64,000 nt of DNA, taken from NCBI RefSeq assembly GCF_001969445.1, contig NZ_CP017297.1:1922001-1986000 (forward strand), given 5' to 3'. This document shows positions 17,189 to 55,901 of the stretch, one piece after another (the first letter of the stretch is position 1; each line of letters begins with the position of its first letter). The notes under the pieces are model-generated. The model was not told the DNA's origin. It saw nothing but the letters and a program-made list of their open reading frames with translations, and did not search any database. A program made the position numbers and the translations under genes. Source of the DNA: Brachybacterium sp. P6-10-X1. Its GTDB lineage: Bacteria > Actinomycetota > Actinomycetes > Actinomycetales > Dermabacteraceae.

Positions 17189-17669
17189 CCCGACGCTCCC
17201 GATCCCCGCCCCGCCCCACGCGCCATCGACCCGGCCCGCCGCCGACCCACCCCGGTCGGCCGGCCGCGAACGCCCGGCCCCATCGGGCCCCACCCCTCGA
17301 CGACGCGGAAGCCCCTCGTCGACGACGTGCGCCAGGTCATCCCCGACCGCCCTGCGTGCCGCGGACATGCGCACGTGATCGAATAGTTATCTCCAGATTG
17401 TCGGACAGTCCGGACATCCGATCGGTGGTGCGAGCCCTGCGCTCGTCATCCCAGGCCATACGGCTTTCCAGAACGTCTCCGCTCTGCTATCACCCCCTCC
17501 CGGGCAACCCCCGTCAGGGGACAAAAGCCCTGTTCCTGGGCACGAACCATTTGCCGAGGCCCTGGGGAAGGGCGATCATGAGGTTCGGACCGGTGTCCTG
17601 CACGTCGGGGGAACAGGCAGAGAGGAGTCGGTCCGCACCTGCCGAACGTCCACCGACGAAGGAGCCCAC
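17189..17669. other. 481-bp gene-free region and presumed long leader of the betaine ABC operon
   Basis: No credible ORF. Contents: the osmotic motif at 17398-17413 and several short potential stems, for example CCCC-GTCA-GGGG near 17510-17521. No conserved aptamer blocks were recognised. Confidence 0.5.
17398..17413. promoter_or_regulatory. TTGTCGGACAGTCCGG motif, shared with the ectABC upstream region
   Basis: Contains the inverted repeat TTGTC-G-GACAg and a CCGG extension. It matches 55886-55901 upstream of ectA at 14 of 16 positions. It lies 257 bp before the start of the betaine ATPase gene, next to an A+T patch (AATAGTTATCT) that may hold the promoter. Candidate operator for an osmotic regulator. 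Confidence 0.5.
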
Positions 17670-18959
17670 GTGCCACCAGTCATCACCGCCGACGGCCTGT
17701 ACAAGGTCTTCGGCCGACGGCCCGCCCGCGGAGTGGAAGCACTCCGGCAAGGCCGGGACCGCGCCGAACTGCGCGAGGAAGGCCTCACCGCTGCGGTGAT
17801 CGATGCGAGTTTCAGCGTCGAGCCCGGTGAGAACTTCGTCGTCATGGGGCTGTCCGGATCCGGCAAGTCCACGCTGATCCGCATGGTCAACGGTCTGCTG
17901 CCCGCCAGCGCCGGCGAGCTGCGCATCGGCGACGAGGTGCTCTCGGCCATGTCCCCGGCGAAGGTGCGCCAGGTGCGTCGCGCCCGCATCTCCATGGTCT
18001 TCCAGCATTTCGCCCTGCTCCCTCATCGCACCGTCGGCGAGAACGCCGCCTACGGGCTCGAGGTCAGCGGCGTGAACCGGGCGGAGCGCCAGAAGAAGGC
18101 CGCCGACGCCCTCGAGATGGTCGGCCTGAAGGGCTGGGGCGGATATCGCCCGGACAACCTCTCCGGCGGCATGAAGCAGCGCGTGGGCCTGGCCCGCGCC
18201 CTGGCCGCCGGCACCGACATCATGCTCATGGACGAGGCCTTCTCCGCCCTGGATCCGCTGATCCGTCGCGACATGCAGGATCAGTTGATCGACCTCCAGC
18301 AGAAGCTGGAGAAGACGGTCCTGTTCATCACGCACGACCTCAACGAGGCCATGCGCATCGGCGATCGGATCGCCATGATGCGCGATGGACGGATCGAACA
18401 GATCGGCACCTCCGACGAGATCCTCAACGAGCCCGCCAACGACTACGTGGCCCGCTTCATCCAGGACGTCGACCGCTCCCGCGTGATGACCGCGGCGAAC
18501 ATCCTCGAGCGGCCCAGCGAGACGCTCGGCGAGGATCACGGCCCGCGCACCGCCCATCGCATGCTGCGCGAGACCCAGAACTCCTGGCTGGTCGCCCTGC
18601 ACCGTGACCGCACCCCGCGCGGCGTCCTGTGGGAGGAGGACGTCGCCGAGGCGGTCAGCAGGGGACAGCAGCAGCTGCCCTGGCGGCCGGGACGCGAGAT
18701 GCCTGTGGTCGCCCACGACACGCCGATCGCCGAGCTGTTCGCGCCCTCCGCCCAGTACGTCAATCCCCTGGTCGTCGTCGACGACGACGGAAAGTTCCTC
18801 GGCGTGATCCCGCGCGTGACGCTCCTGACCGCCGCTGGGACGGGGCACGAGGACGACGACGGCGCCGTCGATCTCGTCGGAGCACCGCCCGCGACGACGC
18901 CGGCCGGGACCGATGCCCCCGAAGACCTGACCCACGAGACCTTCGGAGGTGACCGATGA
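17670..18959 (+). CDS. Glycine betaine/proline-type ABC transporter ATP-binding protein (ProV/OpuAA-like)
   Basis: 429 residues from GTG with AAGGAG upstream. Walker A GLSGSGKST (about 60-68), Q-loop MVFQHFALLPHRT, ABC signature LSGGMKQRVGLARAL (about 165-179) and Walker B IMLMDEAFSALDPL. The C-terminal ~150 residues contain CBS-like segments (PLVVVDDDGKFLGVIPRVTLL), where QAT-family ATPases sense ionic strength. It powers uptake of compatible solutes. The stop overlaps the permease start (ATGA). Confidence 0.92.
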   Translation: MPPVITADGLYKVFGRRPARGVEALRQGRDRAELREEGLTAAVIDASFSVEPGENFVVMGLSGSGKSTLIRMVNGLLPASAGELRIGDEVLSAMSPAKVRQVRRARISMVFQHFALLPHRTVGENAAYGLEVSGVNRAERQKKAADALEMVGLKGWGGYRPDNLSGGMKQRVGLARALAAGTDIMLMDEAFSALDPLIRRDMQDQLIDLQQKLEKTVLFITHDLNEAMRIGDRIAMMRDGRIEQIGTSDEILNEPANDYVARFIQDVDRSRVMTAANILERPSETLGEDHGPRTAHRMLRETQNSWLVALHRDRTPRGVLWEEDVAEAVSRGQQQLPWRPGREMPVVAHDTPIAELFAPSAQYVNPLVVVDDDGKFLGVIPRVTLLTAAGTGHEDDDGAVDLVGAPPATTPAGTDAPEDLTHETFGGDR

Positions 18960-19855
18960 ACCCGGACGAGGGCCTCTTCCCCCGTATCCCGATCGGCGAT
19001 TGGGCCGAGAGCGGCATCGACTGGCTGAAGGAGAACGTCGCCTGGCTGTTCGACGCCTTCACCTGGTTGATGGAGACCCTGGTCGGGAACCTCACCGATG
19101 CGCTGCTGTTCCTGCCGGCCCTGGTGATGATCCCGCTGCTCGCGCTGCTCGCCTGGGTGGTGCGCTCCTGGCGCATGGCCATCGGCACCCTGGTGATGAT
19201 GTTCCTGGTCGTCGCCATGGACCAATGGGTGGCGATGCTCCAGACGATGGCGCTGGTGATCGTGGCGACCGCATTCGCGGTGCTCATCGCCGTCCCGTTG
19301 GGCATCCTGGCCGCCATGAGCTCCACGGTGAGCGCCATCGTGAAACCGATCATGGACTTCATGCAGACGATGCCCGCCTTCGTCTACCTGATCCCCGCGG
19401 TCACCTTCTTCTCGATCGGCCTGGTGCCCGGTGTCTTCTCGACCATCATCTTCGCCCTGCCGCCCGGCGTGCGCATGACGGAGCTCGGCATCCGGCAGGT
19501 CGACGGCGAGACCGTCGAGGCCGGCGAGTCCTTCGGCGCCACGCGAGGGCAGATCCTCCGCGGCATCCAGCTGCCCCTGGCCGTCCCCACCATCATGGCG
19601 GGCGTCAACCAGGTGATCATGCTGGCCCTGTCGATGGCCGTGATCGCCGGCATGGCCGGGACCGACGGCTCCGGCAAGCTCGTGGTCCAGGCGATCTCGA
19701 CCCTGGACCTGCCGCTCGGTGTCGAGGCCGGACTCGGCGTCGTCGCCCTCGCGGTCTTCCTGGACCGCGTCACCGCGGCGCTGGGCAACCCCGGCGACTA
19801 CAAGGGCTCGCTGATCGCGACGTTCAAGCGGCGCCGCGCCGCCGCCACGGCCTGA
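18956..19855 (+). CDS. Glycine betaine-type ABC transporter permease (ProW/OpuAB-like)
   Basis: 299 residues, about six to seven membrane helices. The EAA loop is visible as GESFGATRGQILRGIQLPLAVPTIMAGVNQ (about residues 186-215). The N-terminus has a short amphipathic region before the first helix. It forms the membrane channel with the upstream ATPase, whose stop codon it overlaps by 4 nt. Confidence 0.92.
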   Translation: MNPDEGLFPRIPIGDWAESGIDWLKENVAWLFDAFTWLMETLVGNLTDALLFLPALVMIPLLALLAWVVRSWRMAIGTLVMMFLVVAMDQWVAMLQTMALVIVATAFAVLIAVPLGILAAMSSTVSAIVKPIMDFMQTMPAFVYLIPAVTFFSIGLVPGVFSTIIFALPPGVRMTELGIRQVDGETVEAGESFGATRGQILRGIQLPLAVPTIMAGVNQVIMLALSMAVIAGMAGTDGSGKLVVQAISTLDLPLGVEAGLGVVALAVFLDRVTAALGNPGDYKGSLIATFKRRRAAATA

Positions 19856-19937
19856 TTCCCCGTCGGGGACGGCGCGTCCGCACCGGTCCCGACATCGACC
19901 AGAACCACAGAAACACCCTTGGAAAGGATGTCTGATC

Positions 19938-20885
19938 ATGACCAAGCGAAACTCGCTCTGGACCCCGAACTCCTCCGTCACCCGGCGCTCCGCCCTGGTG
20001 GGCGGCGCCGGCCTGATGGGACTGGGCCTGGCCGCCTGCGGCAGCGAGGGCGGCGGGGACGGCGGGAACGGCGGCGGTGGCGGCCCCGAGGGCAAGACCA
20101 TCACGCTCGGCTACATCGCCTCCTGGACCGACGGGCTGTCGACCGCGTACCTGCTGGACAACCGTCTGACCGCCATGGGCTACACGGTCGAGCACGAGAC
20201 CATCTCCGAGGCGGCGCTGCTGTACGCGGGTCTCGCGCAGGGCGACGTGAGCATGTACCCCTCGGCCTGGCCGGAGGTCACCCACGCCGACTACATGGAC
20301 GAGTACGGCGAGGACATCGAGGACCTGGTCGCCTACTACGAGGGCGCGAAGCTCAACTTCTCCGTCCCCGAGTACGTGGATGACATCACGTCGATCGCGG
20401 ACCTGAAGGGTCAGGCCGACCGCTTCGGCGGCAAGATCTACGGCATCGAGCCCGGCGCGGGCATCACCGCCGCCGCCCAGGACGACGTGATCCCGGGCTA
20501 CGGGCTGGACGGCTTCGAGCTGGTCACCTCCTCCACCCCGGCGATGCTCACCGAGCTGCAGAACGCGATCGATGCCGAGGAGGACATCGTCGTGACCCTG
20601 TGGACCCCGTTCTGGGCGATGACGGCCTTCCCGGTCGTGCCCCTGGAGGATCCGGACGGCCTCTTCGGCGAGCCGGAGTCGCTGCACCACCTGGCCCACA
20701 AGGGCTTCTCCGACGAGAACCCGGAGGCGGCGGAGTGGATCGCTCAGGCGACGATGACCGACGAGGAGTTCGGCTCGCTCGAGGACATGGTCGTGAACCA
20801 GTTCGAGGAGGGCCAGGAGGCCGAGGCGGTGGAGAAGTGGCTCGAGGAGAACCCCGACGTCATGCCGCCGCTGCCGGGCGAGTGA
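19938..20885 (+). CDS. Glycine betaine/choline-type substrate-binding lipoprotein (ProX/OpuAC-like)
   Basis: 315 residues. The N-terminal signal has twin arginines (VTRRSALVGGAG) and a lipobox LAAC (Cys about residue 34), then a Gly-rich linker. The OpuAC fold follows, with TLGYIASWTDGLSTAYLLDN at its start and several Trp residues (SAWPEV, LWTPFWAM) of the kind that form the aromatic cage for quaternary ammonium groups. Last gene of the three-gene operon, followed by a strong hairpin. Confidence 0.92.
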   Translation: MTKRNSLWTPNSSVTRRSALVGGAGLMGLGLAACGSEGGGDGGNGGGGGPEGKTITLGYIASWTDGLSTAYLLDNRLTAMGYTVEHETISEAALLYAGLAQGDVSMYPSAWPEVTHADYMDEYGEDIEDLVAYYEGAKLNFSVPEYVDDITSIADLKGQADRFGGKIYGIEPGAGITAAAQDDVIPGYGLDGFELVTSSTPAMLTELQNAIDAEEDIVVTLWTPFWAMTAFPVVPLEDPDGLFGEPESLHHLAHKGFSDENPEAAEWIAQATMTDEEFGSLEDMVVNQFEEGQEAEAVEKWLEENPDVMPPLPGE

Positions 20886-20945
20886 GCCCCGGACGCTCAC
20901 CGTCGACCCGCGCGGCGGTCTGAGCACCACGATCGACAGCACGCG

Positions 20946-20984
20946 GGACGGGCCGGTCACGACGACGTCGTGGCCGGCCCGTCC
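20946..20984. terminator. Bidirectional terminator hairpin
   Basis: 18-bp arms (20946-20963 and 20967-20984) with a 3-nt loop and one G-T pair, between two convergent genes. TCGCTTCT follows on the plus strand. Confidence 0.8.
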
Positions 20985-20998
20985 TCGCTTCTGGGCGC

Positions 20999-22114
20999 TC
21001 AGCGCTCGATACGCACCTCGGCCCCGGCCTTCGCGGACGCATAGCAGGCATCGATGACCTCGGCGCGGCGCAGGGCGAGCGAGCCGTCATGCGCCGTCCA
21101 GTCCCCGGAGCGGACCTTCTGCAGGAAGGATGCGACCGCGGCGGCATGACGCCCGTCCACCCCGACGGCGGGCTGCAGTTCGGCGGGGATGCCGGCGAGC
21201 TCCGTCCACACGGTGATGGTCTGGTTCCCGGGGGTGCCGCCCCATTCGATGGTGGCCCCGCCGTCGGCCCCGTAGAGGGTGACGTAGCAGAGATCCTCCG
21301 GGATCCACTGCGCCCAGCTGGACTCGAGCAGCAGGGTGCCGCCGCCGTCCAGGCGCAGGAAGGCGGTCGCGAGGTCCTCGACCTCGAAGGGGGCGCCCTC
21401 CTCCGCCTGCGAGATCCCGAAACCGGAGCCGCCCCGGCCCAGCGGGCCGAACTCGGCGTGGGTGGAGGCGGAAGCGGCGGTCACGGCCGGCTCCCCCAGC
21501 AGGTGCAGCGTCATGTCGAGCATGTGGATGCCGATGTCCATCATCGCGCCGCCGCCGGAGCTCTCGGCCTTGGTGAACCAGGTGCCGAGCCCCGGGATCC
21601 CGTGGCGGCGGATCCAGCCGGTCTTGGCGTAGTAGAGCTTGCCCAGCACCCCGGAGTCGACGACGTCCTTCAGCGCGGTGACGTCACCGCGCTGGCGATG
21701 GTTGAAGGACACGTCCAGCACGCGTCCCGCGCGCCGCGCGGCCTCGACCATCCCGGCCGCGGCCTCGGCGTTCTGGGCCATCGGCTTCTCGGTGATCACA
21801 TGCACCCCGGCCTCGAGCGCGGCAGCGGCCATCGACGCGTGCAGGAACGTCGGGGTGGCGATGGAGACGACGTCGAGCTCGGCCTCGGCGAGCATCTGCT
21901 GCCAGTCGCGGTAGCGGCCCGGCACGTCGTGCTGGTCGCCGAACTGCGCCAGGAGGTGCTCCTCCATCGCGGAGAGCGCGGCCAGGTCGACCGTGGGGTC
22001 GGCGGCGTAGGCGGCCACGTGCTGCTGGCCGGCCCAGCCCAGCCCGATCACGCCGGCGCGCAGTCGTCGCGGGGTCTCCGGCGCTGCGTCGGCATTCTGC
22101 TGTGCTTCGGTCAT
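20999..22114 (-). CDS. Gfo/Idh/MocA family oxidoreductase
   Basis: 371 residues. N-terminal Rossmann fold with AGVIGLGWAGQQHVAAYA (about 17-34) and VSIATPTFLHASMA near 85. The EKPMAQNAEAAAGMVEAARR block carries the conserved EKP motif. The C-terminal alpha/beta domain includes GAMMDIGIHMLDMTLHLLGEP, the DxxxH region. NAD(P)-dependent oxidation of a sugar, inositol or derivative is expected. Adjacent to a ROK regulator and a sugar ABC system, so probably part of a sugar-utilisation unit. GAGAGGA precedes the ATG. Confidence 0.9.
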   Translation of the reverse strand: MTEAQQNADAAPETPRRLRAGVIGLGWAGQQHVAAYAADPTVDLAALSAMEEHLLAQFGDQHDVPGRYRDWQQMLAEAELDVVSIATPTFLHASMAAAALEAGVHVITEKPMAQNAEAAAGMVEAARRAGRVLDVSFNHRQRGDVTALKDVVDSGVLGKLYYAKTGWIRRHGIPGLGTWFTKAESSGGGAMMDIGIHMLDMTLHLLGEPAVTAASASTHAEFGPLGRGGSGFGISQAEEGAPFEVEDLATAFLRLDGGGTLLLESSWAQWIPEDLCYVTLYGADGGATIEWGGTPGNQTITVWTELAGIPAELQPAVGVDGRHAAAVASFLQKVRSGDWTAHDGSLALRRAEVIDACYASAKAGAEVRIER

Positions 22115-22178
22115 CGTGCTGAGTCCTCTCGTCGGGGGTCGGTGCGCGGGCCGGGGAACCCCGGTCCGCGCGGATCAT

Positions 22179-23375
22179 TCACTCGATCTGTCGCGGGGAC
22201 GGGTCGAGGAGTTCCAGGGGATCGGCCCGCAGACGGGCCAGGGCGTGCTCGATCGCCCCGCGCACCACGACGTCGCGGCCCAACCGGCTCGGGACGATCT
22301 CCGGGAACGGGGCGCGCGCGATCTCGGGCAGCACGTCGCGGGTGCGGGCGAGCACGGGCTCCATCACGTCGGAGACGGCACCGGCCACGACGATCCGTTC
22401 GACACCGAGCAGGCTGACGAGGATCGCGGCGATGCGGGCGATCCGTTCGCCGATCCGGTCGAGCACGTCGCACGCGAGCTCGTCCCCCGAGGCCGCGGCG
22501 GAGAACACGTCCTCGGAGGTGAGCGCGTCGGAGGGGAGGGCGGCGAGGGACGAGCGGCAGTCGGCGCGATCCAAGCCCGCGAGGGATTCCAGAGCCCAGC
22601 GCCTCGCGAGCGAGGCCACGCCCTCGGCACCCAGATCGTCCTGGAGGATCGCGTCGAGGAACCGCATCTCGCCGGCACCGCCCCGGGCCCCGTGCAGCAG
22701 CCTCCCGTCGACGACGAGTCCGGCGCCGATGCGCTCCCCGGCCAGCAGCGCGACGAGGTTGTCGTCCGGGTGCACGGCATGCTCGGCGAGTGCGGTGAGG
22801 TTCGCGTCGTTCTCGACGAGAACGGTCCCCTCCAGGTGATCGGGGAAGTCCGAGTTCATGAGCCGCCAGAACGTGCCGACGTCCACCGGCGAGATCCCGC
22901 GCAGGTCCACCGGGGCGGGGATGCCGACGACGGTGAGCAGCGGCGGGCCGGTCGCCCCTGCCGCGGCCACCACGTCGGCCACCAGCTCCTGCACCGTGGC
23001 GATGCGCAGATCTCTGTCCACCGAATCCGCGTCGAGATCGCGGTGGGCGGCGGCGAGGACCTCTCCCTGGAGGTCGGCGGAGAGCGCACGGTAGCCGCTG
23101 CGCCCGGCATCGACGCCCACGATGATCCCGGCGTCACGGCGCAGGCGGTGCCGACGAGCGGGTCGGCCGCGGCTCGCGATCCCGGCGACCCGGCTGTCCT
23201 CGGTCTCCTCGAGCCAGCCGACACCCGCGAGCTCATCGCACAGACCCAGCACGGTGGCGCGCGTCAGTCCGGTGGCGGCCATCGCCTCGGCGGCGGTGAA
23301 GTGCTCGACCACGAAGGCATGGCGCAGCAGCGCCTGGATGTTCAGGCGACGCAGCACGCTCGTCGACATTCCCAT
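22179..23375 (-). CDS. ROK-family transcriptional regulator
   Basis: 398 residues from ATG 23375, which has AGGAGG 6 nt upstream (the open frame extends to 23540 but without such a site). N-terminal winged HTH at about 5-65 (FTAAEAMAATGLTRATVLGLCDEL). The ROK sugar-kinase-like domain has IIVGVDAGRSGYRAL, LVENDANLTALAEH and GERIGAGLVVDGRLLHGARGGAGEMRFL. The region after GAGEMRFL lacks an obvious CxCGxxGC zinc motif. Likely controls the divergent sugar ABC operon and the downstream oxidoreductase. Confidence 0.88.
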   Translation of the reverse strand: MGMSTSVLRRLNIQALLRHAFVVEHFTAAEAMAATGLTRATVLGLCDELAGVGWLEETEDSRVAGIASRGRPARRHRLRRDAGIIVGVDAGRSGYRALSADLQGEVLAAAHRDLDADSVDRDLRIATVQELVADVVAAAGATGPPLLTVVGIPAPVDLRGISPVDVGTFWRLMNSDFPDHLEGTVLVENDANLTALAEHAVHPDDNLVALLAGERIGAGLVVDGRLLHGARGGAGEMRFLDAILQDDLGAEGVASLARRWALESLAGLDRADCRSSLAALPSDALTSEDVFSAAASGDELACDVLDRIGERIARIAAILVSLLGVERIVVAGAVSDVMEPVLARTRDVLPEIARAPFPEIVPSRLGRDVVVRGAIEHALARLRADPLELLDPSPRQIE

Positions 23376-23475
23376 GCGCACCTCCTTGACGCCCGTTGTG
23401 ACGACCACCATACTTTCTCCAAGCATTAAATCTAGCAACTGAATTATCAGCTGTGGTGCCGCCGAGGAGACGCTG
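23376..23475. promoter_or_regulatory. A+T-rich divergent promoter/operator region, ROK regulator and sugar ABC operon
   Basis: 100 bp between the two start codons. Bases 23405-23450 drop well below the local G+C (AAGCATTAAATCTAGCAACT core), as expected for a shared promoter and ROK operator. No perfect inverted repeat was found. Confidence 0.45.
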
Positions 23476-24750
23476 TTGTCATCCAGAACCCCCCGCATCG
23501 GGCGACCGTCCCGCCGTTCCCTGCTCGCCGCCGGCGCCACCGGGGCCCTCGCTGCCGGCGGGCTCTCCGCCTGCGGCTCGTCCGGCCGGCCGCGCGTGAC
23601 CTTCTACCAGTCCAAGCGTGAGGTGGTCCCCCACTTCCGGGAACTGGTCAGCGAGTTCAACGCCGCGCAGTCCGACTACACCTACATCCACGACATGGCG
23701 ACGAACCTGCAGGCCGGCTTCGTGCGCTCCAACCCTCCGGACCTCGCCCTGCAGAACTACAACCTCGACATGGCGCGGTTCATGGAGCGCGGGGCGCTGT
23801 CGGACCTCGCGGACCTCCCCGAGGCCGACGCGATCCGTCCGGACGTGCTGGACCTGGTGGACTGGTATCCCGGCTACGAGGGCCGCACGAGCGTGATCCC
23901 GTACTCGGTCGCCGCCGCATCAGTCATCTACAACAAGCGACTCTTCGAGGAGAACGGGCTCGAGGTCCCCACCACGTGGGACGAGCTCCTCACGGTCTGC
24001 GAGACGTTCCTCGAGGCCGGGGTCACCCCGATCTACGGCACCTTCCCGGAGCTGTGGACGACCACGCAGGGTCTGTTCGACTACGTCATCGGCGGCCGGA
24101 TCGACGTGCGCGACTTCATCACGCAGATCAACGAGATCGGCGAGGACGTCGGCCCCGATTCCGAGGTGTCCTTCCAGACGACGCTGCTGGAGCCGGTCCA
24201 GCAGATGCTGGAGCTGCTGCCGTACTTCAACGAGGACGCCCCCAGCCGCACCTACGGGGACGGGAACACGGCGATGGCGCAGGGGGAGGCGGCGATGTAC
24301 CTCCAGGGTCCGTGGGCGCTGGTGGAGATCGAGAAGGCGGCCACGGACATCGAGCTGGGCTCGTTCCCGCTGCCCGTGACCGACGACCCCGCGGACCTCC
24401 GGATCCGCGTGAACATCGATCTCTCGCTGTGGATCCCCGAACAGGCGGACGAGCAGGAGGGCGCCCGGCAGTTCCTGCAGCACCTGATGCGTCCGGAGAT
24501 CCAGTTCCCCTACAACGAACTGGCCCTGGCCTTCTCCACCACGAAGGACGCCCCGGAGGTCACCGACCCCCGGATCTCCGAGATGCAGCCCTACTACGAC
24601 GAGGGGAGGTTCTACATGGGCGCTTCACAGTTCATCCCGCCCACCATCCCGTTCGAGAACTACGTCCAATCGATCGTGCTCGGGGCGGACCCGGAGCCGA
24701 TCCTCGCCCAGATCGACTCCGACTTCGCCCGGCTCGCCTACCGCGCCTGA
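23476..24750 (+). CDS. Extracellular sugar-binding lipoprotein of an ABC transporter
   Basis: 424 residues from a TTG start; GAGGAG lies 6 nt upstream. The twin-arginine-like signal (RPSRRSLLAAGATGAL) ends in a lipobox LSAC (Cys about 33). The mature part is a type 1 extracellular solute-binding fold (cluster B) with VTFYQSKREVVPHFRELV and TAMAQGEAAMYLQGPWALVEI-like segments. First gene of a binding protein-permease-permease operon. Confidence 0.9.
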   Translation: MSSRTPRIGRPSRRSLLAAGATGALAAGGLSACGSSGRPRVTFYQSKREVVPHFRELVSEFNAAQSDYTYIHDMATNLQAGFVRSNPPDLALQNYNLDMARFMERGALSDLADLPEADAIRPDVLDLVDWYPGYEGRTSVIPYSVAAASVIYNKRLFEENGLEVPTTWDELLTVCETFLEAGVTPIYGTFPELWTTTQGLFDYVIGGRIDVRDFITQINEIGEDVGPDSEVSFQTTLLEPVQQMLELLPYFNEDAPSRTYGDGNTAMAQGEAAMYLQGPWALVEIEKAATDIELGSFPLPVTDDPADLRIRVNIDLSLWIPEQADEQEGARQFLQHLMRPEIQFPYNELALAFSTTKDAPEVTDPRISEMQPYYDEGRFYMGASQFIPPTIPFENYVQSIVLGADPEPILAQIDSDFARLAYRA

Positions 24751-24784
24751 GCGGCCCATCCGCCGTCGACCCCGAGGACACCGC

Positions 24785-26658: not shown

Positions 26659-26873
26659 CGCCGACGGCCGACGGGGAGCCCTCGAAGCAGGAGGACGACG
26701 TGCCGGCGGTCTGATTCCGCAGCACCGCGGGCCTCCGACCGGAGCACGCGCACGACCCCGGACACGTGCGGCATTCCGCACCGCGCCGGCGGCAGCGGAC
26801 GCCGGCCCACTCGGCCTGGGCCCCGAGGCGAAGGCGCCTGTGCGCGGCACGTGCCGTGTCGCTGCTGCGACCT

Positions 26874-27485: not shown

Positions 27486-27510
27486 CATCTCTCCTTCTCC
27501 GCCGAACAAC

Positions 27511-34058: not shown

Positions 34059-34703
34059 TCAATCGGCCTCGCGCGGCGCCCCCCTCTCCGAGACGTGAGC
34101 GCTGAGCAGGTCCGCGAACTGCTCGGAATCGCCATCGCGGAAGTGCTCCCACAGCTGCACGTGCTCCGCGATCCCGCGCTCGCCGCGCTCCAGCTGCTCT
34201 TCCCCGTCGGCCGAGAGCGCGAAGCGGTGCCGGTCGGCCAGTCGGTCGTACAGCTCCAGCTGCACCTGGTTCCCGCCCGCCTCGACGAATCCACGATGGA
34301 AGGCCTGCAGCAGGCCCACGAAGGTGTGCAGGTCGTGGGCGCGCAGGGCGGACCTCTGGTCCTCGATGGTCTCCGCGAGCTGCGCCGCGATCCGCGCGCG
34401 ATCATCGGGTGCGGCACGCTCCGCCCCGGCCCGCTCCAGCAGGACCCGCGTCTCGGCGAGCTCGGAGACTGCCCGCTGGCTGAGCCCGCGGACGAGGGCC
34501 CCGCGCTGGGGATAGATGCTGATCCATCCCTCGTCCTGCAGACGCGACAGCGCGGTCCGCACGGGGGTACGGCTCATCTCGAGCTGCGAAGCCAGCCCGG
34601 ACTCGCCGAGCATCGTGCCCGGCGGGACGTCTCCATCGAGGATCTGCTCGCGAATGCTCTGGTACGCGCGATCGGCGGCGCTGGGCACACGGTCCTCCTG
34701 CAT
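34059..34703 (-). CDS. GntR-family transcriptional regulator, FCD subfamily
   Basis: 214 residues from ATG 34703 (AGGAGG 9 nt upstream). N-terminal winged HTH at about 8-70 (ESGLASQLEMSRTPVRTALSRLQDEG). The C-terminal all-helical FCD domain at about 80-205 includes FHRGFVEAGGNQVQLELYDRL and HVQLWEHFRDGD; the two His are candidate metal/ligand residues. Probably represses the downstream MFS gene in response to a small organic acid (inference). Confidence 0.9.
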   Translation of the reverse strand: MQEDRVPSAADRAYQSIREQILDGDVPPGTMLGESGLASQLEMSRTPVRTALSRLQDEGWISIYPQRGALVRGLSQRAVSELAETRVLLERAGAERAAPDDRARIAAQLAETIEDQRSALRAHDLHTFVGLLQAFHRGFVEAGGNQVQLELYDRLADRHRFALSADGEEQLERGERGIAEHVQLWEHFRDGDSEQFADLLSAHVSERGAPREAD

Positions 34704-46119: not shown

Positions 46120-46144
46120 ACGTCTCCCGAAGGAGTCACCACCG

Positions 46145-46789: not shown

Positions 46790-46826
46790 CCACCCCTGGA
46801 CGAGGATCTCCGGGAGCTGATCTCGC

Positions 46827-48389: not shown

Positions 48390-48428
48390 GCATCGCCCCG
48401 TCCGGAGGACCCCGTCACGGCCGCGAGC

Positions 48429-51254
48429 TCACCGCCTGCGGCGCGGATCGACGTCGCCCTCGGGGCGGGCGATCATCGACTCGACCTGGTCGGCGAAGCC
48501 CAGTCCGTGCTGGGACGCGACCTGCTGGGCCAGGGCGCGGCCCTCCTCCAGCCGGCGGCGCGCCGACGGCAGGTCGCCGGAACGCAGGGAGCTGATCGCC
48601 CCGACGATCCTCCAGTAGGCCGCCTCGGACCAGAACCCCATGTCCTGGCAGATCTCCAGTGCCCGGTCAGCCGCGTCGGCGGCCCGTTCGGCGTGGCCCT
48701 CGACCTCGGCGACGCAGTACTGCACGCCGACCACGAGCGCCAGGCCGTACCCGCGATCGCCGACGGCGCGCAGCACGCTTTCGGGGTCACGGCCGTCCGG
48801 CAGTCCCCGGGGCGGCTCGCCGCGGTCCATCACGATGACCCAGTCGCGCTGGCACGCGGCCACGGCCGCCTCCCAGTCCATACCGCGTCGGATCAGGAGA
48901 TCCACGGCGTCGTCGACGAGTCGCTCGCCCTCGTCATGCAGATCCGCCGCGAGGTACGCCATGCCCGCGAACCACTGCACCTCGGCACGTGCCGCCGCAT
49001 CGTCGCCGAACAGCGCCAGGGCAGCAGTGATCCGCTCGCGGGCCTCGCCGCCCCCGGCGCCGAGGTCGAGCGCCGCGGCCAAGGTCGTCGCCGAGGCGAA
49101 GGCTCTGTCCCGGGGGCCGGGAAGCGCGGTCGCAGCGGCGAGGTCGCCGTGGAGGTCGGCCTGTCTGCCGCTCATCCAGGAGTACCAGAACGTCCCCAGG
49201 ACCAGCGCCACCGCACGCTCTCCGTCCTGGGAGCCGACGGACTCGTGGAAGGCATGGCGCACGGGGACGCGTTCGGCCTCCATCCGCATCAGCCAGTCGC
49301 GCTGAGCAGATCCTCGAAGGCCGCGATCGGCTCGCCGGACCAGATCGAGATAGTGATCCAGGTGGCGACCTGCGACGGCGTCACGTTCACCGGCCTCCGT
49401 GAGCTTCTCGCCCGCGTAGGCGGCGATCGATTCCAGGAGACCGTAGCGAGCACCGGCCGGGGTGGAGATCATCGTGACCATGCTGCGGTCGACGAGGCTG
49501 GTGAGAGCGTCGACGACCTCTGCTCGCTCCGCCGACGTGCTGTCGCGGTTCTCGGACGGGTGAGCGCAGATCGTCTCGGCCGCCTCCAGCCCCATCGCGC
49601 CAGGATGGACCGCGAGGCGACGCAGCACTGCGCGCTCGGTCTCGCTGAGCAGCGACCAGCTCCAGTCGATCATGCCGCGCAGGGTCTGCCGGCGCCGCGG
49701 CACTCCGTGGCCGGGGCGGCGCAGGAGGTTGAGCCGATCGCTGAGGCGTTCCAGGAGGGCGTCGACGGTGAGCCCGCGGATGCGTGCGGCCGCCAATTCC
49801 AGTGCCAGGGGCAGCCCGTCCAGCCGCCGGCACAGCTCGGTCACGGTCGCCGTGCTGTCCTCGTCGAGCACGAACCCCGGGTCCGCGGCGCGGGCGCGCG
49901 CCACGAAGAACTCCACCGCCTCCGCAGGTTCGCCGTCACCTGGTTCCGTGCTGAGGGTGCCGACGTCGTCCCGCTGCTCCTCCGGCAGACCGAGCGGTTC
50001 GCGGCTGGTGGCCAGCACGCGCGCGCCGGCAGCGTGACGAAGGAGCTCGGCCACGAACGCCGCGACCTCGGTGACGACGTGCTCGCAGTTGTCCAGCACC
50101 AGCAGCGCCGTCCGCGCACCGAGGGCCTCTCCGACCCGATGCAGAGCATCGTCGGGGTCAGGGGCACCGACCTCCGCGACGCGCTGGATCAGGCCCATGG
50201 CGGACATCACCGAGCGGGCGATGCGCTCCCCGTGCCCTCCCTCGCCCACCGGCGTGGGCGACAGCTCGGTCAGGTCGATGAACCATACGCCGCGGTCGAA
50301 CTCGGTCGCGCGCGCACGTGCGACGTGCAGCGCGAGGCGGGTCTTTCCCACTCCCCCGATGCCGGTCAACGTCACCAGGCGCGAGGCGTCCACCAGGCGG
50401 CCGAGCTCCTCGAGCTCGTCGTGCCGGCCGATCAGGGGTGCCGTCTCCGCCGGGAGGTTCGTGCGCGCCGGCACGTCGGGGGCGGGCTCGCGCGCCGCGC
50501 CGGGACCCAAGGATGGATCCTGGCGGAGGATCCTGGTGTGGAGCCCCTGCAGATGAGGGCCTGGGTCGATGCCGAGCTCGTCGGCGAGCCGAGTGCGCAG
50601 GGACTCGTACAGCGCCAGCGCCTCGTGCTGCCGGCCGAGCTGGTACAGGCCGTGCATCAGCGCTCCGATCAGCCGCTCCCGGCCGGGGTGCAGGGGCACC
50701 GCGGGCATGCCCGCGTCGATCGCCTCCTGGGGCTCGCCCAGCTCGACCAGCGTCTCGACGAGGAGCTCGACGGCGTCCCCGCGCGCCTGCGCCGACTCCG
50801 CGACGACCGGGGCGAGCCACTCCTCGTCGCGGACGTCGCCGTAGGGCTGCCCCCGCCACAGGTCCAGCGCCTCCCGCAGCGCCTCGGCCGTCCGCACAGG
50901 AGCGTCCAGCCGTCTCGCCCGCGCGAGAGCGGTGGCGAAGGTGCCCGCGTCGACGGCGTCGGGGCCGACCGCGAGCCGGTACCCCGCCGGCGTGCGCTCC
51001 AACAGCTCTCTCGCGCCGGGCTGCGCCGCGTCCAGGAGCGAGCGCAGGTGGGAGAGCTTGGCGCGCAACACAGCGCGGGGATCCCTCGGCGGGCTCTCGC
51101 CCCAGAGCCGGTCGATCAGCGCATCGGCCGGGATCGGCTCCCCTCCGGCGGCGACCAATGCGGCCAGGAGCAGGCGCAGCTTGCGCTCCGGCACGGGGAC
51201 CGGGGCTCCCTCGACCGTCGTGAGACGAACGGGTCCCAGCACCTCGACCAGCAT
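48429..51254 (-). CDS. AfsR/SARP-type regulator with NTPase and tetratricopeptide-like regions
   Basis: 941 residues. N-terminal OmpR-type winged HTH (about 1-95) and BTAD (about 100-245, with HPGRERLIGALMHGLYQLGRQ). An NB-ARC/AP-ATPase follows with Walker A TGIGGVGKTRLALHV (about 297-311), a Walker B-like ALLVLDNCEHV and EPLGLPEE sensor region. The C-terminal ~400 residues are helical repeats. Such proteins activate secondary-metabolite or stress genes. No biosynthetic cluster is present; the nearest candidates are the FMN reductase/exporter pair. TAGGAT 6 nt upstream gives a leaderless start. Confidence 0.88.
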   Translation of the reverse strand: MLVEVLGPVRLTTVEGAPVPVPERKLRLLLAALVAAGGEPIPADALIDRLWGESPPRDPRAVLRAKLSHLRSLLDAAQPGARELLERTPAGYRLAVGPDAVDAGTFATALARARRLDAPVRTAEALREALDLWRGQPYGDVRDEEWLAPVVAESAQARGDAVELLVETLVELGEPQEAIDAGMPAVPLHPGRERLIGALMHGLYQLGRQHEALALYESLRTRLADELGIDPGPHLQGLHTRILRQDPSLGPGAAREPAPDVPARTNLPAETAPLIGRHDELEELGRLVDASRLVTLTGIGGVGKTRLALHVARARATEFDRGVWFIDLTELSPTPVGEGGHGERIARSVMSAMGLIQRVAEVGAPDPDDALHRVGEALGARTALLVLDNCEHVVTEVAAFVAELLRHAAGARVLATSREPLGLPEEQRDDVGTLSTEPGDGEPAEAVEFFVARARAADPGFVLDEDSTATVTELCRRLDGLPLALELAAARIRGLTVDALLERLSDRLNLLRRPGHGVPRRRQTLRGMIDWSWSLLSETERAVLRRLAVHPGAMGLEAAETICAHPSENRDSTSAERAEVVDALTSLVDRSMVTMISTPAGARYGLLESIAAYAGEKLTEAGERDAVAGRHLDHYLDLVRRADRGLRGSAQRDWLMRMEAERVPVRHAFHESVGSQDGERAVALVLGTFWYSWMSGRQADLHGDLAAATALPGPRDRAFASATTLAAALDLGAGGGEARERITAALALFGDDAAARAEVQWFAGMAYLAADLHDEGERLVDDAVDLLIRRGMDWEAAVAACQRDWVIVMDRGEPPRGLPDGRDPESVLRAVGDRGYGLALVVGVQYCVAEVEGHAERAADAADRALEICQDMGFWSEAAYWRIVGAISSLRSGDLPSARRRLEEGRALAQQVASQHGLGFADQVESMIARPEGDVDPRRRR

Positions 51255-51260
51255 CCCCCC

Positions 51261-51266
51261 ATCCTA
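51261..51266 (-). promoter_or_regulatory. -10 element (TAGGAT) for the SARP-like gene
   Basis: TAGGAT, six G, then ATG at 51254. Confidence 0.55.
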
Positions 51267-52355
51267 GGGAGCGCGGTCATCCGTGGCCGGGCTCCCGGCG
51301 TCGCGGGCCCCTCGGGGCGCCGACTCGTGCCGGGGGCGAGCCTCAGCGCCGCCGGAGGGTCGGGTCCAGCAGCGAGGGCGGGGCGTCGTTCCCAGCGACT
51401 TCCGACGGAGGTGCATGGACCAGGATTCGGGCGCGGCGTCGGCGGTGAACGCGAGGAGCTCGAGCAACGTCGCACTCCGCGGCGCTGCCCAGTTGCGATC
51501 CTCCGACGTGGACGGCTCCTTCATCAGGCGCGCCAGCGCGAGGTAGAGGTGGTACCAGAGCGCATCGCGCTCGAGAGCGAGGCTCCCGCCCGCCTCATCC
51601 GCCGGCGGCGCAACCCCCTGCGCTGAGCGGTACCCGGACAGCAGGTCGGGCAACTCTCGGATCGGCAGGCCGACGAGATCGCGAGCAGGCGATCCCCATT
51701 CGGCGCAGCCCCAGTCCAACATTGCGGAGACCCGTCCCCCGCGATCGACCATCACGTTCGCGGGGATCACGTCTCGGTGGAGGAGCACCGGATCCGCCTG
51801 CGACGGACCCTCGGGCTGCAGAAGGGCGAACTGTTCCCCGAGCCACTCGTGCTGCGCACTGCCGATCTCTCCCGCGTCCAGGAGTCGGCCGAGCAGCTCC
51901 GAGGGGGAGAACGTGAAGGGTTCGGGGATCGCCCCGATGGGCTCGACCGCGCTGTACCGGATCTGGTGGAGCGACGCCAGGATCTCGCCGAGTGATCCGA
52001 GCGCACATCGGCGCTCCGCCGAACCTGGTGGCTGTTCTGCCAGAGTCGTGCCATGCACCCGCTGCAGGACCATGTACGGCACTCTCACGACGCTCGACGA
52101 CGCGTCGTAGCGGACGAGTTCCGGTGTCGGTACGCCGGCGTCCCGGACCAGAGGGATGACGTCGGCCTCCTTCGCGAGCTGCTCCGCAGCCGCGGGCGTG
52201 CGCGGGATGCGCAGGACCAGCTCGTCGCCGAGGAAGACCGTGACGTTCACCTGGCCCTGGGTGGGCACGGGCACCACGTCCTTCTCCGCCACGCCATAGT
52301 GCGCCGCCACGGCGTGCACGTCGTCGGTGAACGGCTCCGCATCGGTCATCGTCAT
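51264..52355 (-). CDS. Aminoglycoside/macrolide phosphotransferase-like kinase
   Basis: 363 residues from ATG 52355 (GGAGGAG upstream). APH fold: nucleotide-binding lobe with NVTVFLGDELVLRIPR, catalytic loop VLLHRDVIPANVMVD (HxDxxxxN, about residue 205) and metal-binding MLDWGCAEWGSP. Closest in pattern to the phosphotransferases that inactivate aminoglycosides or macrolides, but environmental homologues act on unknown metabolites. The C-terminal ~50 residues are Arg/Pro-rich and may lie outside the fold. The 3' end crosses the SARP gene's -10 element. Confidence 0.82.
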   Translation of the reverse strand: MTMTDAEPFTDDVHAVAAHYGVAEKDVVPVPTQGQVNVTVFLGDELVLRIPRTPAAAEQLAKEADVIPLVRDAGVPTPELVRYDASSSVVRVPYMVLQRVHGTTLAEQPPGSAERRCALGSLGEILASLHQIRYSAVEPIGAIPEPFTFSPSELLGRLLDAGEIGSAQHEWLGEQFALLQPEGPSQADPVLLHRDVIPANVMVDRGGRVSAMLDWGCAEWGSPARDLVGLPIRELPDLLSGYRSAQGVAPPADEAGGSLALERDALWYHLYLALARLMKEPSTSEDRNWAAPRSATLLELLAFTADAAPESWSMHLRRKSLGTTPRPRCWTRPSGGAEARPRHESAPRGARDAGSPATDDRAP

Positions 52356-52413
52356 GGCGTGCGGTCTCCTCCTGCGGTGCTCTGCGGAACTGTCGACGCG
52401 ATCTTGCACCTCG

Positions 52414-52938
52414 CTACTTGTCCCACGCCTCGACGGGCGGAAGACCACGACTCTCGCGCTCGTCATTCAGCAATTCCTGGATGAGAGAACTCTTCGCTGC
52501 GGTGTAGGCGCGCCCATCGGTGGTCCCGGCGATCTCTTCCTTGAGCTGCTGGTACCTGCGGCGGGCATCCTCATCCTGGAGCAGTTTGTCGCGGAAGAGC
52601 CGTTGGTTGCAGTGCGGCCATTGCTCGGCGCTGAAGACATGCAGGATGTGGGTGCGTCGGGCTTCGGCACTGCGCACGTACACGGCGTGGTTCTTCGGGC
52701 CCGTGACGTGCGAGGCGCACCCGAGGCCTTCCAGCGCCTCCCCCATCGCGAAGGGGTCCGCGCCCTCGACAGCCCGTGCCGCCATGTCGATGATCGGCTT
52801 CGCGAGGAGTCCGGGGACTGCCGTGCTCCCGATGTGCTCGATCGCGTCGACCCTCCCACCCAGCACAGCCGAAGCCTCGTCCGCGGCGTGAACGAATGAA
52901 CCCGCCCAAGCCTCATGATGCGGCTGCAGCTCGACCAT
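52414..52938 (-). CDS. GrpB family protein (UPF0157)
   Basis: 174 residues starting MVELQPHHEAWAGSF. AIEHIGSTAVPGLLAKPIIDMAA (about 33-55) is the GrpB nucleotidyltransferase-fold signature, with GS and the Asp of PIID. Function unclear; often fused to or beside dephospho-CoA kinase. I chose ATG 52938 because the longer frame reads through non-homologous sequence antisense to the argS fragment, and TAGTGT lies 7 nt upstream. Confidence 0.88.
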   Translation of the reverse strand: MVELQPHHEAWAGSFVHAADEASAVLGGRVDAIEHIGSTAVPGLLAKPIIDMAARAVEGADPFAMGEALEGLGCASHVTGPKNHAVYVRSAEARRTHILHVFSAEQWPHCNQRLFRDKLLQDEDARRRYQQLKEEIAGTTDGRAYTAAKSSLIQELLNDERESRGLPPVEAWDK

Positions 52939-52945
52939 GGCGGTG

Positions 52946-52951
52946 ACACTA
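52946..52951 (-). promoter_or_regulatory. -10 element (TAGTGT) for the GrpB gene
   Basis: TAGTGT with 7 nt to the ATG at 52938. Confidence 0.5.
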
Positions 52952-53025
52952 CCCGCTCGCCTGGCGGACCTTCCGGAGCGGAATGCTCGCATCGTCGGCT
53001 CCAGGGCGATCCCTGTAGCCGACGT

Positions 53026-53859
53026 GGGTGACTCGCTCGCCGTCTGGCTGCGCACCACGGCCTTCGGCGACGACTCGGCGACGACAAGGATGGTGTCGTC
53101 ATCTAGTCCGACCGCCAGCCCGCCTACATCTCCGGCGACCTTGCGTACTACCTCGACAAGCGCGAACGCGGATTCGACCGCTGCTTGGTGATGCTCGGTG
53201 CAGATCACCACGGTTACGTGCAGCGCCTCATGGCAATGTGCTCGGCTTTCGGCGATGAGCCCGGAATCAACCTCCAGGTCCTCATCGGTCAGATGGTCAA
53301 CCTTGTGCGCGAAGGTCGTCCGGTGCGCATGTCGAAGCGAGCCGGCACCATCGTCACGCTCGAGGATCTCGTCGAGATCGTGGGCGTGGACGCGGCGCGG
53401 TATGCCCTCGTGCGGAGCTCGGCCGACACCAACCTCGACATCGACCTCGACATCCTTGAGAAGCGCTCGAACGAGAATCCGGTCTTCTCTGTCCAGTACG
53501 CCCACGCTCGCACCATCAACGTCGCGCGTAACGCGGCCGACCGGGGCATCACACGCGCGGCGTTCCAGCCTGAGCTGCTCGAGCACGAGACCGAGGCTGC
53601 ACTGCTCGGCGCCCTCCAAGAGTTCCCCCGCATCGTCAGGTTCGCCGCGGAGGTGCGCGAGCCGTACCGCGTCGCCCACTTCCTTGAGGAGCTCGCCGGG
53701 CTGTACCACCGGTGGTATGGCAACTGCCGCGTGACGCCCAAGGGTGATGCGCCGACTGGGCCAGTGCACGACACGCGCCTCTGGCTGAATGATGCCGCGG
53801 GCCAGGTCTTCCGCAACGGCCTCGGCCTGCTCGGAGTCAGCGCGCCCGAGCGCATGTGA
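53026..53859 (+). pseudogene. argS: Decayed arginyl-tRNA synthetase C-terminal fragment
   Basis: From about 53026 the DNA encodes the second half of ArgS: LAVWLRTTAFGDD, then in another frame DDKDGVVI, an amber stop (TAG, 53104-53106), and [20 protein letters not shown] on to [10 protein letters not shown], the KMSKS-like region [14 protein letters not shown] and a complete anticodon-binding end (stop at 53859, after [11 protein letters not shown]). The catalytic N-terminal half (HIGH region) is absent. The frameshift is explained by an 11-bp tandem duplication at 53064-53085. An intact argS must exist elsewhere. Base composition is less G+C-rich than its neighbours, suggesting import or relaxed selection. 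The 3' 675 bp could still be translated from an internal start, but no ribosome binding site is evident. Confidence 0.85.
53064..53085. repeat. 11-bp tandem duplication inside the argS remnant
   Basis: TCGGCGACGAC occurs at 53064-53074 and again at 53075-53085. Removing one copy joins WLRTTAFGDD to KDGVVI in frame, as expected for ArgS. Confidence 0.9.
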
Positions 53860-53920
53860 TGATTCCCCGGCGACAACCGTTTCACGCGCGCCCCGGCGCG
53901 CGGGTGTACTCGGACCTGAG

Positions 53921-53993
53921 TGGGCCCGGAGGGGATCGAACCCTCGACCCGCGGATTAAAAGTCCGATGCTCTGCCAACTGAGCTACAGGCCC
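53921..53993 (-). tRNA. tRNA-Lys (anticodon TTT)
   Basis: 73-nt cloverleaf on the minus strand: acceptor GGGCCTG/CGGGCCC (one T-G pair), anticodon loop CTTTTAA, T arm GAGGG-TTCGATC-CCCTC, discriminator A at 53921. CCA is not encoded. Its 3' end faces the argS remnant. Confidence 0.97.
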
Positions 53994-54159
53994 TGACCCG
54001 CTTTGCGGGCCCGTCCATCGTAGCGGCGCGGGAGCGACATGGACGACGCCGGGGAGGTGGGTGTGAGCCGCCTCCCCGGCGCCGACGATCATGCGGTGGA
54101 TCGCGGAGCACCGCACGAGCGGCAGCTCGCGCGCACGCACGGGAACCCGCGGCCCGCAC

Positions 54160-55671
54160 TCAGCTCTGCGAGCTCGCCAGCTCCCGCGCGCGCTGGTAGT
54201 CGGCCACGTCCTCGTCCTCCCAGACCTCGACGTTCTTGATCTCGGGCAGGTCCGAGGCCAGGAAGATCGGGTCGAGGCCCTGAGCGCGCTGGGCGTTGTA
54301 GTGGCGCAGCAGCTTCACGGCGGTGGGGGTGAGGATCGCGATCACCACCAGGTTCACCAGGGCGATGAACACCATGGAGACCCCGGCGATGGTCCACGCC
54401 AGGTCGACTGCGATCGCGGAGCCGATGAACACCAGCGCCACCACGGCGGCTCCGAAAGCGATGTGCCAACCGCGCTTGGAGGTCAGGAAGTGCATGTTCG
54501 CCTCGCCGTAGGAGAAGTTCCCCAGCACCGAGGTGAAGGCGAGCAGGAACATGATCACCGCGAGCAGGATCGCGGCCCAGGCACCGAGGTTGCTCGACAG
54601 CGACTCCTGCACCATCACCAGCCCCTCACCGCCGGCCGAGACGTCGGGGAAAGCGACCAGCACGATGAACGCGGTGATGGAGCAGATCAGGATCGTGTCG
54701 AAGTAGACGCCGAGGGTCTGGACCAGGCCCTGCTTGACCGGGTGGCTCACCGAGGCGGTCGCGGCGACGTTCGGGACCGAGCCCATGCCGGCCTCGTTCG
54801 AGAGCATGCCGCGCTGGACGCCGTTGACGATGGCGGCGCCGATGCCGCCGCCGATGGCGGCCTGCGGGTTGAAGGCCCCCTCGACGATCTGGGTGATCAC
54901 GCGCGGCAGCTCACCGACGTTCATGCCGACGATGAGGATGCCGATGATCAGATAGATGACCGCCATGATCGGGACCATGTTCTGCGCGACGGTCGCCACG
55001 CGGCGCATGCCGCCGAAGACGATCCCGGCGGTGAGGGCGGCCAGCAGCACGCCCAGGACGACGGGCAGCCAGGGCATCGCGGCCGGGTCGGTGTAGATGG
55101 CGACGGCGCCGGTGACCGCGTCGACGATGGTGTTGGCCTGCAGCGAGGTGAAGGCGAAGGCGAAGCAGAAGATGAACAGGATCGCGAAGAACACCCCGAA
55201 TCCGCGGCTGCCCAGCCCGCGCTGGATGTAGAAGGCCGGTCCACCTTTGTAGGTGTCGGCGGCCCGAGTCTTCCACAGCTGGGCGAGGGTGGACTCGATG
55301 AAGCTGGCCGCGCCGGTGAGCAGGCACATGACCCACATCCACAGCACTGCGCCCGGGCCGCCCAGGAAGATGGCCCCGGCCACGCCGGAGACGTTCCCGG
55401 TGCCCACACGCGCTGCGGCGGAGATGGAGAAGGCCTGGAAGGCGCTGAGGGACTTGGTGCGCTCGCCGCGCCCGTGTCCCTTTCCGGCCTGCTCGCGCTG
55501 GGCCTTCTGCGTGATCGCCCCGAACATCGCCGGGATCATGCGGATCTGGACCGCACCGCTGCGGATCGTGAAGTAGAGGCCGAGCACGATGACCACGGGC
55601 ATCCCTGCCCAGGTCCACAGCCAGCCCTCGGCATTGCCGAGGAACTCGTTCAGGGTCTCGAGGGGGTTCAT
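54160..55671 (-). CDS. Alanine/glycine:cation symporter (AGCS family)
   Basis: 503 residues from ATG 55671, about eleven helices. Family hallmarks: ISAAARVGTGNVSGVAGAIFLGGPGAVLWMW (about 85-115), DTYKGGPAFYIQRGLG, and RGMLSNEAGMGSVPNVAATA (about 265-284). Imports alanine or glycine with Na+. Divergent from ectABC; an osmotic link is possible but not shown by the sequence. Confidence 0.93.
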   Translation of the reverse strand: MNPLETLNEFLGNAEGWLWTWAGMPVVIVLGLYFTIRSGAVQIRMIPAMFGAITQKAQREQAGKGHGRGERTKSLSAFQAFSISAAARVGTGNVSGVAGAIFLGGPGAVLWMWVMCLLTGAASFIESTLAQLWKTRAADTYKGGPAFYIQRGLGSRGFGVFFAILFIFCFAFAFTSLQANTIVDAVTGAVAIYTDPAAMPWLPVVLGVLLAALTAGIVFGGMRRVATVAQNMVPIMAVIYLIIGILIVGMNVGELPRVITQIVEGAFNPQAAIGGGIGAAIVNGVQRGMLSNEAGMGSVPNVAATASVSHPVKQGLVQTLGVYFDTILICSITAFIVLVAFPDVSAGGEGLVMVQESLSSNLGAWAAILLAVIMFLLAFTSVLGNFSYGEANMHFLTSKRGWHIAFGAAVVALVFIGSAIAVDLAWTIAGVSMVFIALVNLVVIAILTPTAVKLLRHYNAQRAQGLDPIFLASDLPEIKNVEVWEDEDVADYQRARELASSQS

Positions 55672-55678
55672 GACCCCG

Positions 55679-55684
55679 ACGGTA
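55679..55684 (-). promoter_or_regulatory. -10 element (TACCGT) for the AGCS gene
   Basis: TACCGT with 7 nt to ATG 55671. Confidence 0.45.
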
Positions 55685-55885
55685 CCGAGCCGGGCGCCGG
55701 GCGGTCCGCCGATTCCACCATCTCGATCCCGTCTCGCCCGCCGACGACGCCGTTGTCTCTCGCGCGCGCGAGGATCGTGCCGCGCCACACAAGGGAGTGA
55801 CACATGCCACACCGGAGAGTCGCAGCTCTCGTCATGACCCCTCGGGTTCCCGACGAAACCCCAGCTCAGCACGTATAGGCGGGGG

Positions 55886-55901
55886 TTGTCCGACAATCCG
55901 G
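55886..55901. promoter_or_regulatory. TTGTCCGACAATCCGG motif, shared with the betaine ABC operon
   Basis: Contains the perfect inverted repeat TTGTC-C-GACAA. It matches 17398-17413 at 14 of 16 positions and lies about 112 bp before the ectA start. Candidate site for a common osmotic regulator. Confidence 0.55.

Follow-up and report, generated by a model that had tools for sequence, protein, structure and literature searches.

A palindrome shared by ectABC and proVWX in Brachybacterium: candidate operator of an ehu-linked GntR/FCD regulator of compatible-solute genes

Introduction

Dedicated regulators of ectoine genes (EctR, CosR, EnuR) have been described for Proteobacteria, and actinobacteria use global regulators (MtrA, GlnR), as the available portions of the literature have it. 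The inducers of EnuR are given as alpha-acetyl-diaminobutyrate and diaminobutyrate (PMC8739950), MtrA is described as directly activating ectABCD in Streptomyces venezuelae (PMC13189361), and the operators of the FadR subfamily are written as NyGTM-N0-1-KACNy (PMC4494728). Here we describe a palindromic motif of Brachybacterium sp. P6-10-X1 that lies before both the ectoine synthesis genes ectABC and the betaine-type import genes proVWX. Both sites are in one window, meaning the whole stretch of DNA analysed, 64,000 nucleotides long (contig NZ_CP017297.1, positions 1,922,001 to 1,986,000); coordinates refer to the window unless marked as genome positions. The motif is very probably the operator of a FadR-subfamily GntR protein, which would tie together ehuBCDA, ectABC with the divergent agcS, proVWX and a sodium/solute symporter gene.

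Results

A sequence-only reading of the window had paired two 16-mers, TTGTCGGACAGTCCGG on the proV side (17398-17413) and TTGTCCGACAATCCGG on the ectA side (55886-55901). Their positions, their agreement at 14 of 16 positions and the TTGTC-N-GACAR inverted repeat within each are as it described. It missed that each 16-mer is part of a longer palindrome, with a consensus of about GGATTGTC-S-GACARTCC, and that the ectA-side copy lies between two divergent genes, agcS and ectA.

17395..17411, unstranded: predicted palindromic operator before proV, AGATTGTC-G-GACAGTCC, covering most of 17398-17413
55883..55899, unstranded: predicted palindromic operator between agcS and ectA, GGGTTGTC-C-GACAATCC, covering most of 55886-55901

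With no mismatches, the degenerate 16-mer occurs at just these two sites within the window. Its window count at up to three mismatches is unremarkable (4, against an expected mean of 2.60, with 29 of 100 shuffles as high), and the two additional matches are the same palindromes on the opposite strand. Across the 4,385,603 bases of the genome the proV and ectA sites are the sole matches at up to one mismatch (reversed control, 1). The 17-mer at up to two mismatches finds 5 places against 0 for the reversed control. Two-mismatch places at genome positions 420079 and 1629339 were rejected as targets, both lying within predicted genes. Genome-wide there are 6 exact cores YTGTCNGACAR, whereas the reversed control has 4; the excess is weak, and therefore the evidence rests on where the sites are rather than on their number. 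Four of the six fall in intergenic DNA. One precedes proV, one is flanked by agcS and ectA, one by gntR and an ehuB-like gene (genome position 3956659), and one precedes a sodium/solute symporter gene (3198910). The other two, at 2395540 (a sulfatase-like frame) and 2484169 (an AraC-like frame), are inside coding sequence and were not counted as targets. The sequence-only reading had noticed no further copies; that holds for the window at zero mismatches, and two more intergenic cores stand elsewhere in the genome. It had named occurrence at chance frequency as a refutation; the placement of the motif is not that expected by chance, although the bare core count is by itself not telling.

The regulator had been thought to adjoin neither window copy, rightly. 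The candidate gene, gntR, is outside the window and 2 Mb away (genome 3955611-3956420, minus strand). It is divergent from an ehuB-C-D-A-like ATP-binding cassette (ABC) transporter operon, with an operator copy in the shared intergenic region, and this arrangement of gntR, site and ehuB-C-D-A-like genes recurred when the surroundings of the other sites were fetched. The 17-mer at ehuB lies beyond a putative -10 and stops 42 bp short of the ATG; it follows a GATAGCGT element likewise found before ectA. NCBIfam equivalog scores for the ehu proteins are mixed: EhuD 230.4 (cut-off 205.2) and EhuC 196.0 (just under 196.95), both for proteins of genome G021, an EhuB of 157.2 (under 190.9) for P6-10-X1, and a truncated piece with EhuA as its best match at 213.4 (under 345.4).

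The gntR product has 269 amino acids, in which a Pfam scan recognised only an N-terminal GntR winged helix (PF00392, 50.3 bits, cut-off 27) and a C-terminal, all-helical FCD domain (PF07729, 47.5 bits, cut-off 24.3), with no aminotransferase-like, RCK_C or MarR domain; it scores 19.5 bits with the NCBIfam EhuR model, against a cut-off of 480. When the structure of the B. alimentarium orthologue is modelled (pLDDT 86.0, pTM 0.79), its best Foldseek matches are FCD-type GntR structures. The motif fits the FadR form, as TTGTC-N-GACAA in Brachybacterium and TTGTC-TACAA in other genera. By domains, fold and operator form, the regulator is a member of the FadR/FCD subfamily of the GntR superfamily. 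The metal site of FCD domains consists of an Asp and three His; here D155 and H159 are invariant and a third residue, the His of column 203, is nearly so (it is Leu in the P6-10-X1 protein), with no obvious fourth. Thirteen FCD matches were found in the P6-10-X1 genome, the candidate and 12 others. One of these 12, an FCD-domain GntR gene, is inside the window, at about 34089-34463 on the minus strand (genome 1956089-1956463); part of it aligns with the ehu-linked one, at 31% identity.

Orthologues of gntR with at least 74% identity are present in 20 of 36 genomes of the genus, and later turned up in G058 and G059. G022 has a split gene besides (C1 857077-857825), the match falling into two pieces in different frames, broken or misread; G008 has a 51% homologue, with site and ehuB present. 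A site lies between gntR and ehuB in P6-10-X1, and each of the 16 named-collection loci assigned to Brachybacterium has one of TGTCNGACA type there. The palindrome before ectA is present in 17 of 20 Brachybacterium loci, 207-247 bp before the EctA domain match, and is among the few strongly conserved blocks in an alignment of those 17 upstream regions. A counterpart of the proV palindrome lies 264-287 bp before the start in 19 of 27 loci, a few of them with one core mismatch. In P6-10-X1 itself the operator is 127 bp upstream of ectA and 272 bp upstream of proV.

Sites and gntR occur together. The ectA site is found in 17 of 18 genomes with gntR and in neither of the two without (Fisher 0.016; 0 of 4 without gntR, 0.0007, when two genomes from outside the genus are added), and the proV site, scored by position, in 19 of 21 with gntR and 0 of 6 without (9.5e-5); these Fisher values ignore kinship. 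Under an automatic rule for proV, which accepted up to two differences at any point of the 420 bp, the counts were 17 of 19 with gntR and 1 of 6 without (p 0.002). Positional scoring counts G006 as present, its site being visible in L079, excludes weak off-distance matches in G003 and G005, and adds G058 and G059. These last two were found through the proV search, with a proV site, and gntR was afterwards found in both. In a ProV tree at least two changes are required to account for the gntR-less rows; one gntR-less group (G035, G016 and G025) sits inside gntR-bearing rows. The sites, their locations, their conservation and their gain and loss jointly with gntR are thus established at the level of genome sequence.

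Further targets were seen within the genus. The symporter site lies 347 bp upstream of its gene; in G014 and G021, relatives of the symporter are also preceded by a site, at a distance of about 335 bp. A second AgcS gene is preceded by the motif in G012 (L066, about 3050), G001 (L084, about 3080) and G002 (L252, about 2591); the encoded proteins are 86% and 79% identical among themselves and about 31% identical to the ect-linked AgcS. G001 also has a TTGTCGGACAT site before a ProP-like betaine/proline transporter gene (L083, about 2362; 389.3 bits, below the cut-off of 544). Single motif matches in G031, G035 (C14) and G039 were rejected, all being inside predicted genes. Outside the target set there are a single match in G029 and matches at G018 368254, G033 C1:678481 and G058 3953180, and another, at G023 C2:228106, adjoins an IS1380 transposase gene.

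A scan of named genomes with the GntR protein alignment gave 36 loci: the 16 taken as Brachybacterium, two of which are titled only Actinomycetales, plus a further 20 from Isoptericola, Arthrobacter, Oerskovia, Citricoccus, Promicromonospora, Zhihengliuella and a Micrococcaceae metagenome-assembled genome (MAG). The divergent gntR-ehuB order holds in all 36, down to 32-37% protein identity. YTGTCNGACAR is found in none of the 20 non-Brachybacterium gntR-ehu loci. These carry GATTGT-N2/3-ACAATC, perfect in 10 and with at most two of 12 positions mismatched in 17; L203, L205 and L216 have three mismatches. The GATTGT half-site is retained as the centre switches between 2 and 3 bases, even within Isoptericola (L201, L202, L214, L219), where L214 and L219, both titled I. 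halotolerans, differ. This motif was found by 8-mer counts and shuffle-scored in the same intergenic regions, so that the shuffle values are optimistic and a genome search is cleaner. That search covered 15 of the 20 genomes and, with GATTGTCTACAATC at up to one mismatch, gave 14 places; the reversed control gave none. Eight places are at ehuB, two immediately precede DoeA/EutD-like ectoine-hydrolase genes that score under the cut-off of 613, at 409.9 and 429.5 bits, and belong to the genomes of the Arthrobacter sp. H14 and Micrococcaceae MAG loci, one is before an aminotransferase gene, and one is near a ProP-like gene in Citricoccus.

L246, L249 and L247, each 1501-1514: hydrolase and aminotransferase sites

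Outside the genus, then, the regulator's wider role looks like ectoine uptake and breakdown. ectA is present in 16 of the 20 outside-genus genomes, and no convincing site was found before it in those 16; a match upstream of ectA in L224 (up to two mismatches, spacing 3, without the GTC/GAC core) was taken as chance. Since ectA has no convincing site there and the ehu and hydrolase genes do, control of ect looks like a Brachybacterium trait. The conservation before ect and proV operons that the sequence-only reading had proposed as a check thus holds within Brachybacterium and fails before ectA in other genera.

Its assignment of the two window loci to compatible-solute synthesis and uptake is borne out by profile scores.

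17670..18959, plus strand: proV-type gene with a GTG start, for the ATPase of a betaine/choline/proline ABC transporter (TIGR01186, 370.6 bits, cut-off 326.6)
18956..19855, plus strand: proW-type permease (TIGR03416, 297 bits, below the cut-off of 363)
19938..20885, plus strand: proX-type substrate-binding protein (Pfam OpuAC, 196.4 bits, cut-off 21.2)
54160..55671, minus strand: agcS-type sodium:alanine/glycine symporter, divergent from ectA (TIGR00835, 393.7 bits, cut-off 272.65; Pfam Na_Ala_symp)
55919..55934, plus strand: direct repeat ATCAC-N6-GTCAC, MtrA-box-like, twenty bases past the ectA palindrome
55973..56001, plus strand: putative promoter of ectA, TCCACA-N17-TAGCGT, whose end is 11 bases from the ATG; read from the sequence, conserved in the alignment
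56013..56564, plus strand: ectA (TIGR02406, 161.1 bits, cut-off 120.6)
56650..57927, plus strand: ectB (TIGR02407, 627.2 bits, cut-off 552.2)
58009..58443, plus strand: ectC (NF009806, 194.5 bits, cut-off 128)

The start codon of agcS is our choice. For proW and the binding protein the best-scoring models are for choline/betaine, both under their cut-offs (120.3 for the proX-type protein with the NCBIfam choline-binding model). Immediately 5′ of the proV palindrome an AT-rich block, GAATAGTTAT (about 17384-17391), is conserved, including in G019 and G003, which have no palindrome there. Sigma-70 and terminator scans of the two intergenic regions found none, the sigma-70 scan giving nothing at the putative ectA promoter, and an Rfam scan gave no family at either palindrome. 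A marginal Guanidine-II riboswitch match is at 15019-15063 on the plus strand (33.3 bits, gathering score 32).

The direct repeat is the second conserved block before ectA. It has the sequence form of an MtrA site, GTnAC-type half-sites in direct repeat with a spacer of 5-6 bp; the block thus resembles an MtrA box and may be bound by MtrA. The form [AG]TnAC-N6-[AG]TnAC is present upstream of ectA at 17 of the 20 Brachybacterium loci and at 6 of the 16 others; shuffles lead one to expect 0.007 per upstream region. G005, a genome without gntR, keeps the repeat; G035, G019 and G003 are without the exact form. Two MtrA-box-like repeats are also found in the ehu/gntR region.

Discussion

We suggest that the ehu-linked GntR protein occupies the palindromes as a dimer and works chiefly by repression, keeping transcription low as long as no ligand is bound to its FCD domain. 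Candidates for the ligand are ectoine and other compounds of its pathway, among them acetyl-diaminobutyrate and diaminobutyrate: the targets surround ectoine import, breakdown and synthesis, and the last two compounds are the inducers of EnuR. Osmotic induction would come through a separate input, probably that of MtrAB at the direct repeat next to the ectA palindrome.

Several observations weigh against this account. The exact-core count is barely above that of its reversed control. The co-occurrence with gntR reflects few independent gains and losses, though more than one. G019 has gntR and no site at either ectA or proV, and G003 is without the proV site at its usual place despite having gntR. 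Two of the 14 outside-genus places are misfits, one between hydroxyacid-dehydrogenase and YdiJ/GlcD-like genes and one by a transposase gene; the former (L243 1501-1514) is perhaps the site of another FCD regulator. The operators are far upstream, at 127 bp for ectA, 272 bp for proV and 347 bp for the symporter gene, which is unusual for simple repression and makes activation or looping possible. Finally, the genome encodes twelve other FCD proteins, and FadR-type operators look alike.

The distances bear most on the sign of regulation. The same protein at the same sites might activate ectABC and proVWX, or act in both directions through looping, and repress only ehuBCDA; we regard this as a lesser but substantial possibility, given that the ectA and proV sites are so far upstream and that the former lies ahead of the putative promoter by the ATG. 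Repression would fit these distances if the site covered the start of a promoter further upstream; the AT-rich GAATAG-type element just 5′ of the proV site, present in many ectA upstream regions too, could be the -10 of such a promoter. The number of paralogues bears on the identity of the protein. One of the 12 other FCD proteins, or an unrelated one, could bind the motif, leaving the ehu-linked GntR a merely co-regulated neighbour, and the similarity of paralogue operators and the outside-genus copy at unrelated dehydrogenase genes would agree with that; we think it unlikely, as the site tracks the ehu-linked gntR across the genus and adjoins gntR even where the proteins are only 32-37% identical.

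The sequence-only reading had proposed a GntR- or MarR-like regulator. Its GntR half is supported by the operator form, the linked gntR and the co-occurrence; its MarR half fares poorly, the linked regulator being GntR/FCD. A MarR-type protein of the CosR/EctR kind has precedent, as those proteins control ectoine genes in Proteobacteria (PMC5924519, PMC7876524). The motif is of GntR form, and the EctR operator is described as A/T-rich with two 8-bp half-sites; no search aimed at MarR genes was made, and we hold a MarR protein to be very improbable. Still less credible is a resemblance by chance or an element acting in RNA. The window count at up to three mismatches, which is not above shuffles, would suit chance, but the genome has just two matches at up to one mismatch and the sites are conserved at fixed places; at the RNA level, neither site matches an Rfam family and a one-base centre cannot close a hairpin.

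With the ehu-linked GntR as the preferred regulator, we lean towards the following history, judged from the distribution of sites. An FCD-type GntR that in other Micrococcales serves ectoine import and, in some, breakdown may have become a compatible-solute hub in Brachybacterium, palindromes being gained before ectABC, proVWX and symporter genes. One ectoine-pathway signal would then balance making, importing and possibly using solutes, atop an older MtrA-type osmotic input, as a convergent counterpart of EnuR. A GntR/FCD switch linking ectoine synthesis to import would illustrate how an actinobacterium decides whether to make its protectants or to import them. The regulon gives a concrete candidate ligand class, and would be a natural example of a local regulator that has expanded into the hub of a regulon.

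A search of open-licence literature gave no title or opening of an abstract on an FCD-type GntR over ectoine or betaine genes or on a GntR study in Brachybacterium, which is not proof of absence; the portions available of PMC10454040 and PMC9608346 hold nothing on such a regulator. Among described systems, CosR and EctR1 of Vibrio and methylotrophs are like the candidate in governing ectoine synthesis and, for CosR, compatible-solute import; they differ in being MarR-family proteins of Proteobacteria with another operator. EnuR/EutR shares the GntR-type winged helix and controls ectoine uptake and breakdown, and the outside-genus targets found here (ehu and DoeA/EutD-like genes) are of the same kind. 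It belongs to the MocR subfamily, with a large aminotransferase-like domain where the 269-residue candidate has FCD, and unlike it the candidate has in Brachybacterium ectoine synthesis and betaine-type import among its targets. BusR of Lactococcus and Streptococcus is also GntR-type and represses a betaine importer (PMC8517857), but has an RCK_C domain sensing cyclic di-AMP and a bipartite operator with 22-bp separation, as against FCD and a single palindrome. MtrA of Streptomyces venezuelae has a direct-repeat site like the second conserved ectA block (PMC13189361); as a response regulator with a different motif, it is proposed here as a separate input and not as owner of the palindrome. The FCD regulators VanR/Atu1419, LldR and PdhR share the candidate's domains, fold and operator form and differ in target set, which here is compatible-solute synthesis and import. 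As far as the open-licence literature shows, what is new is this target set, with CosR- and EnuR-like work apparently done by an FCD protein.

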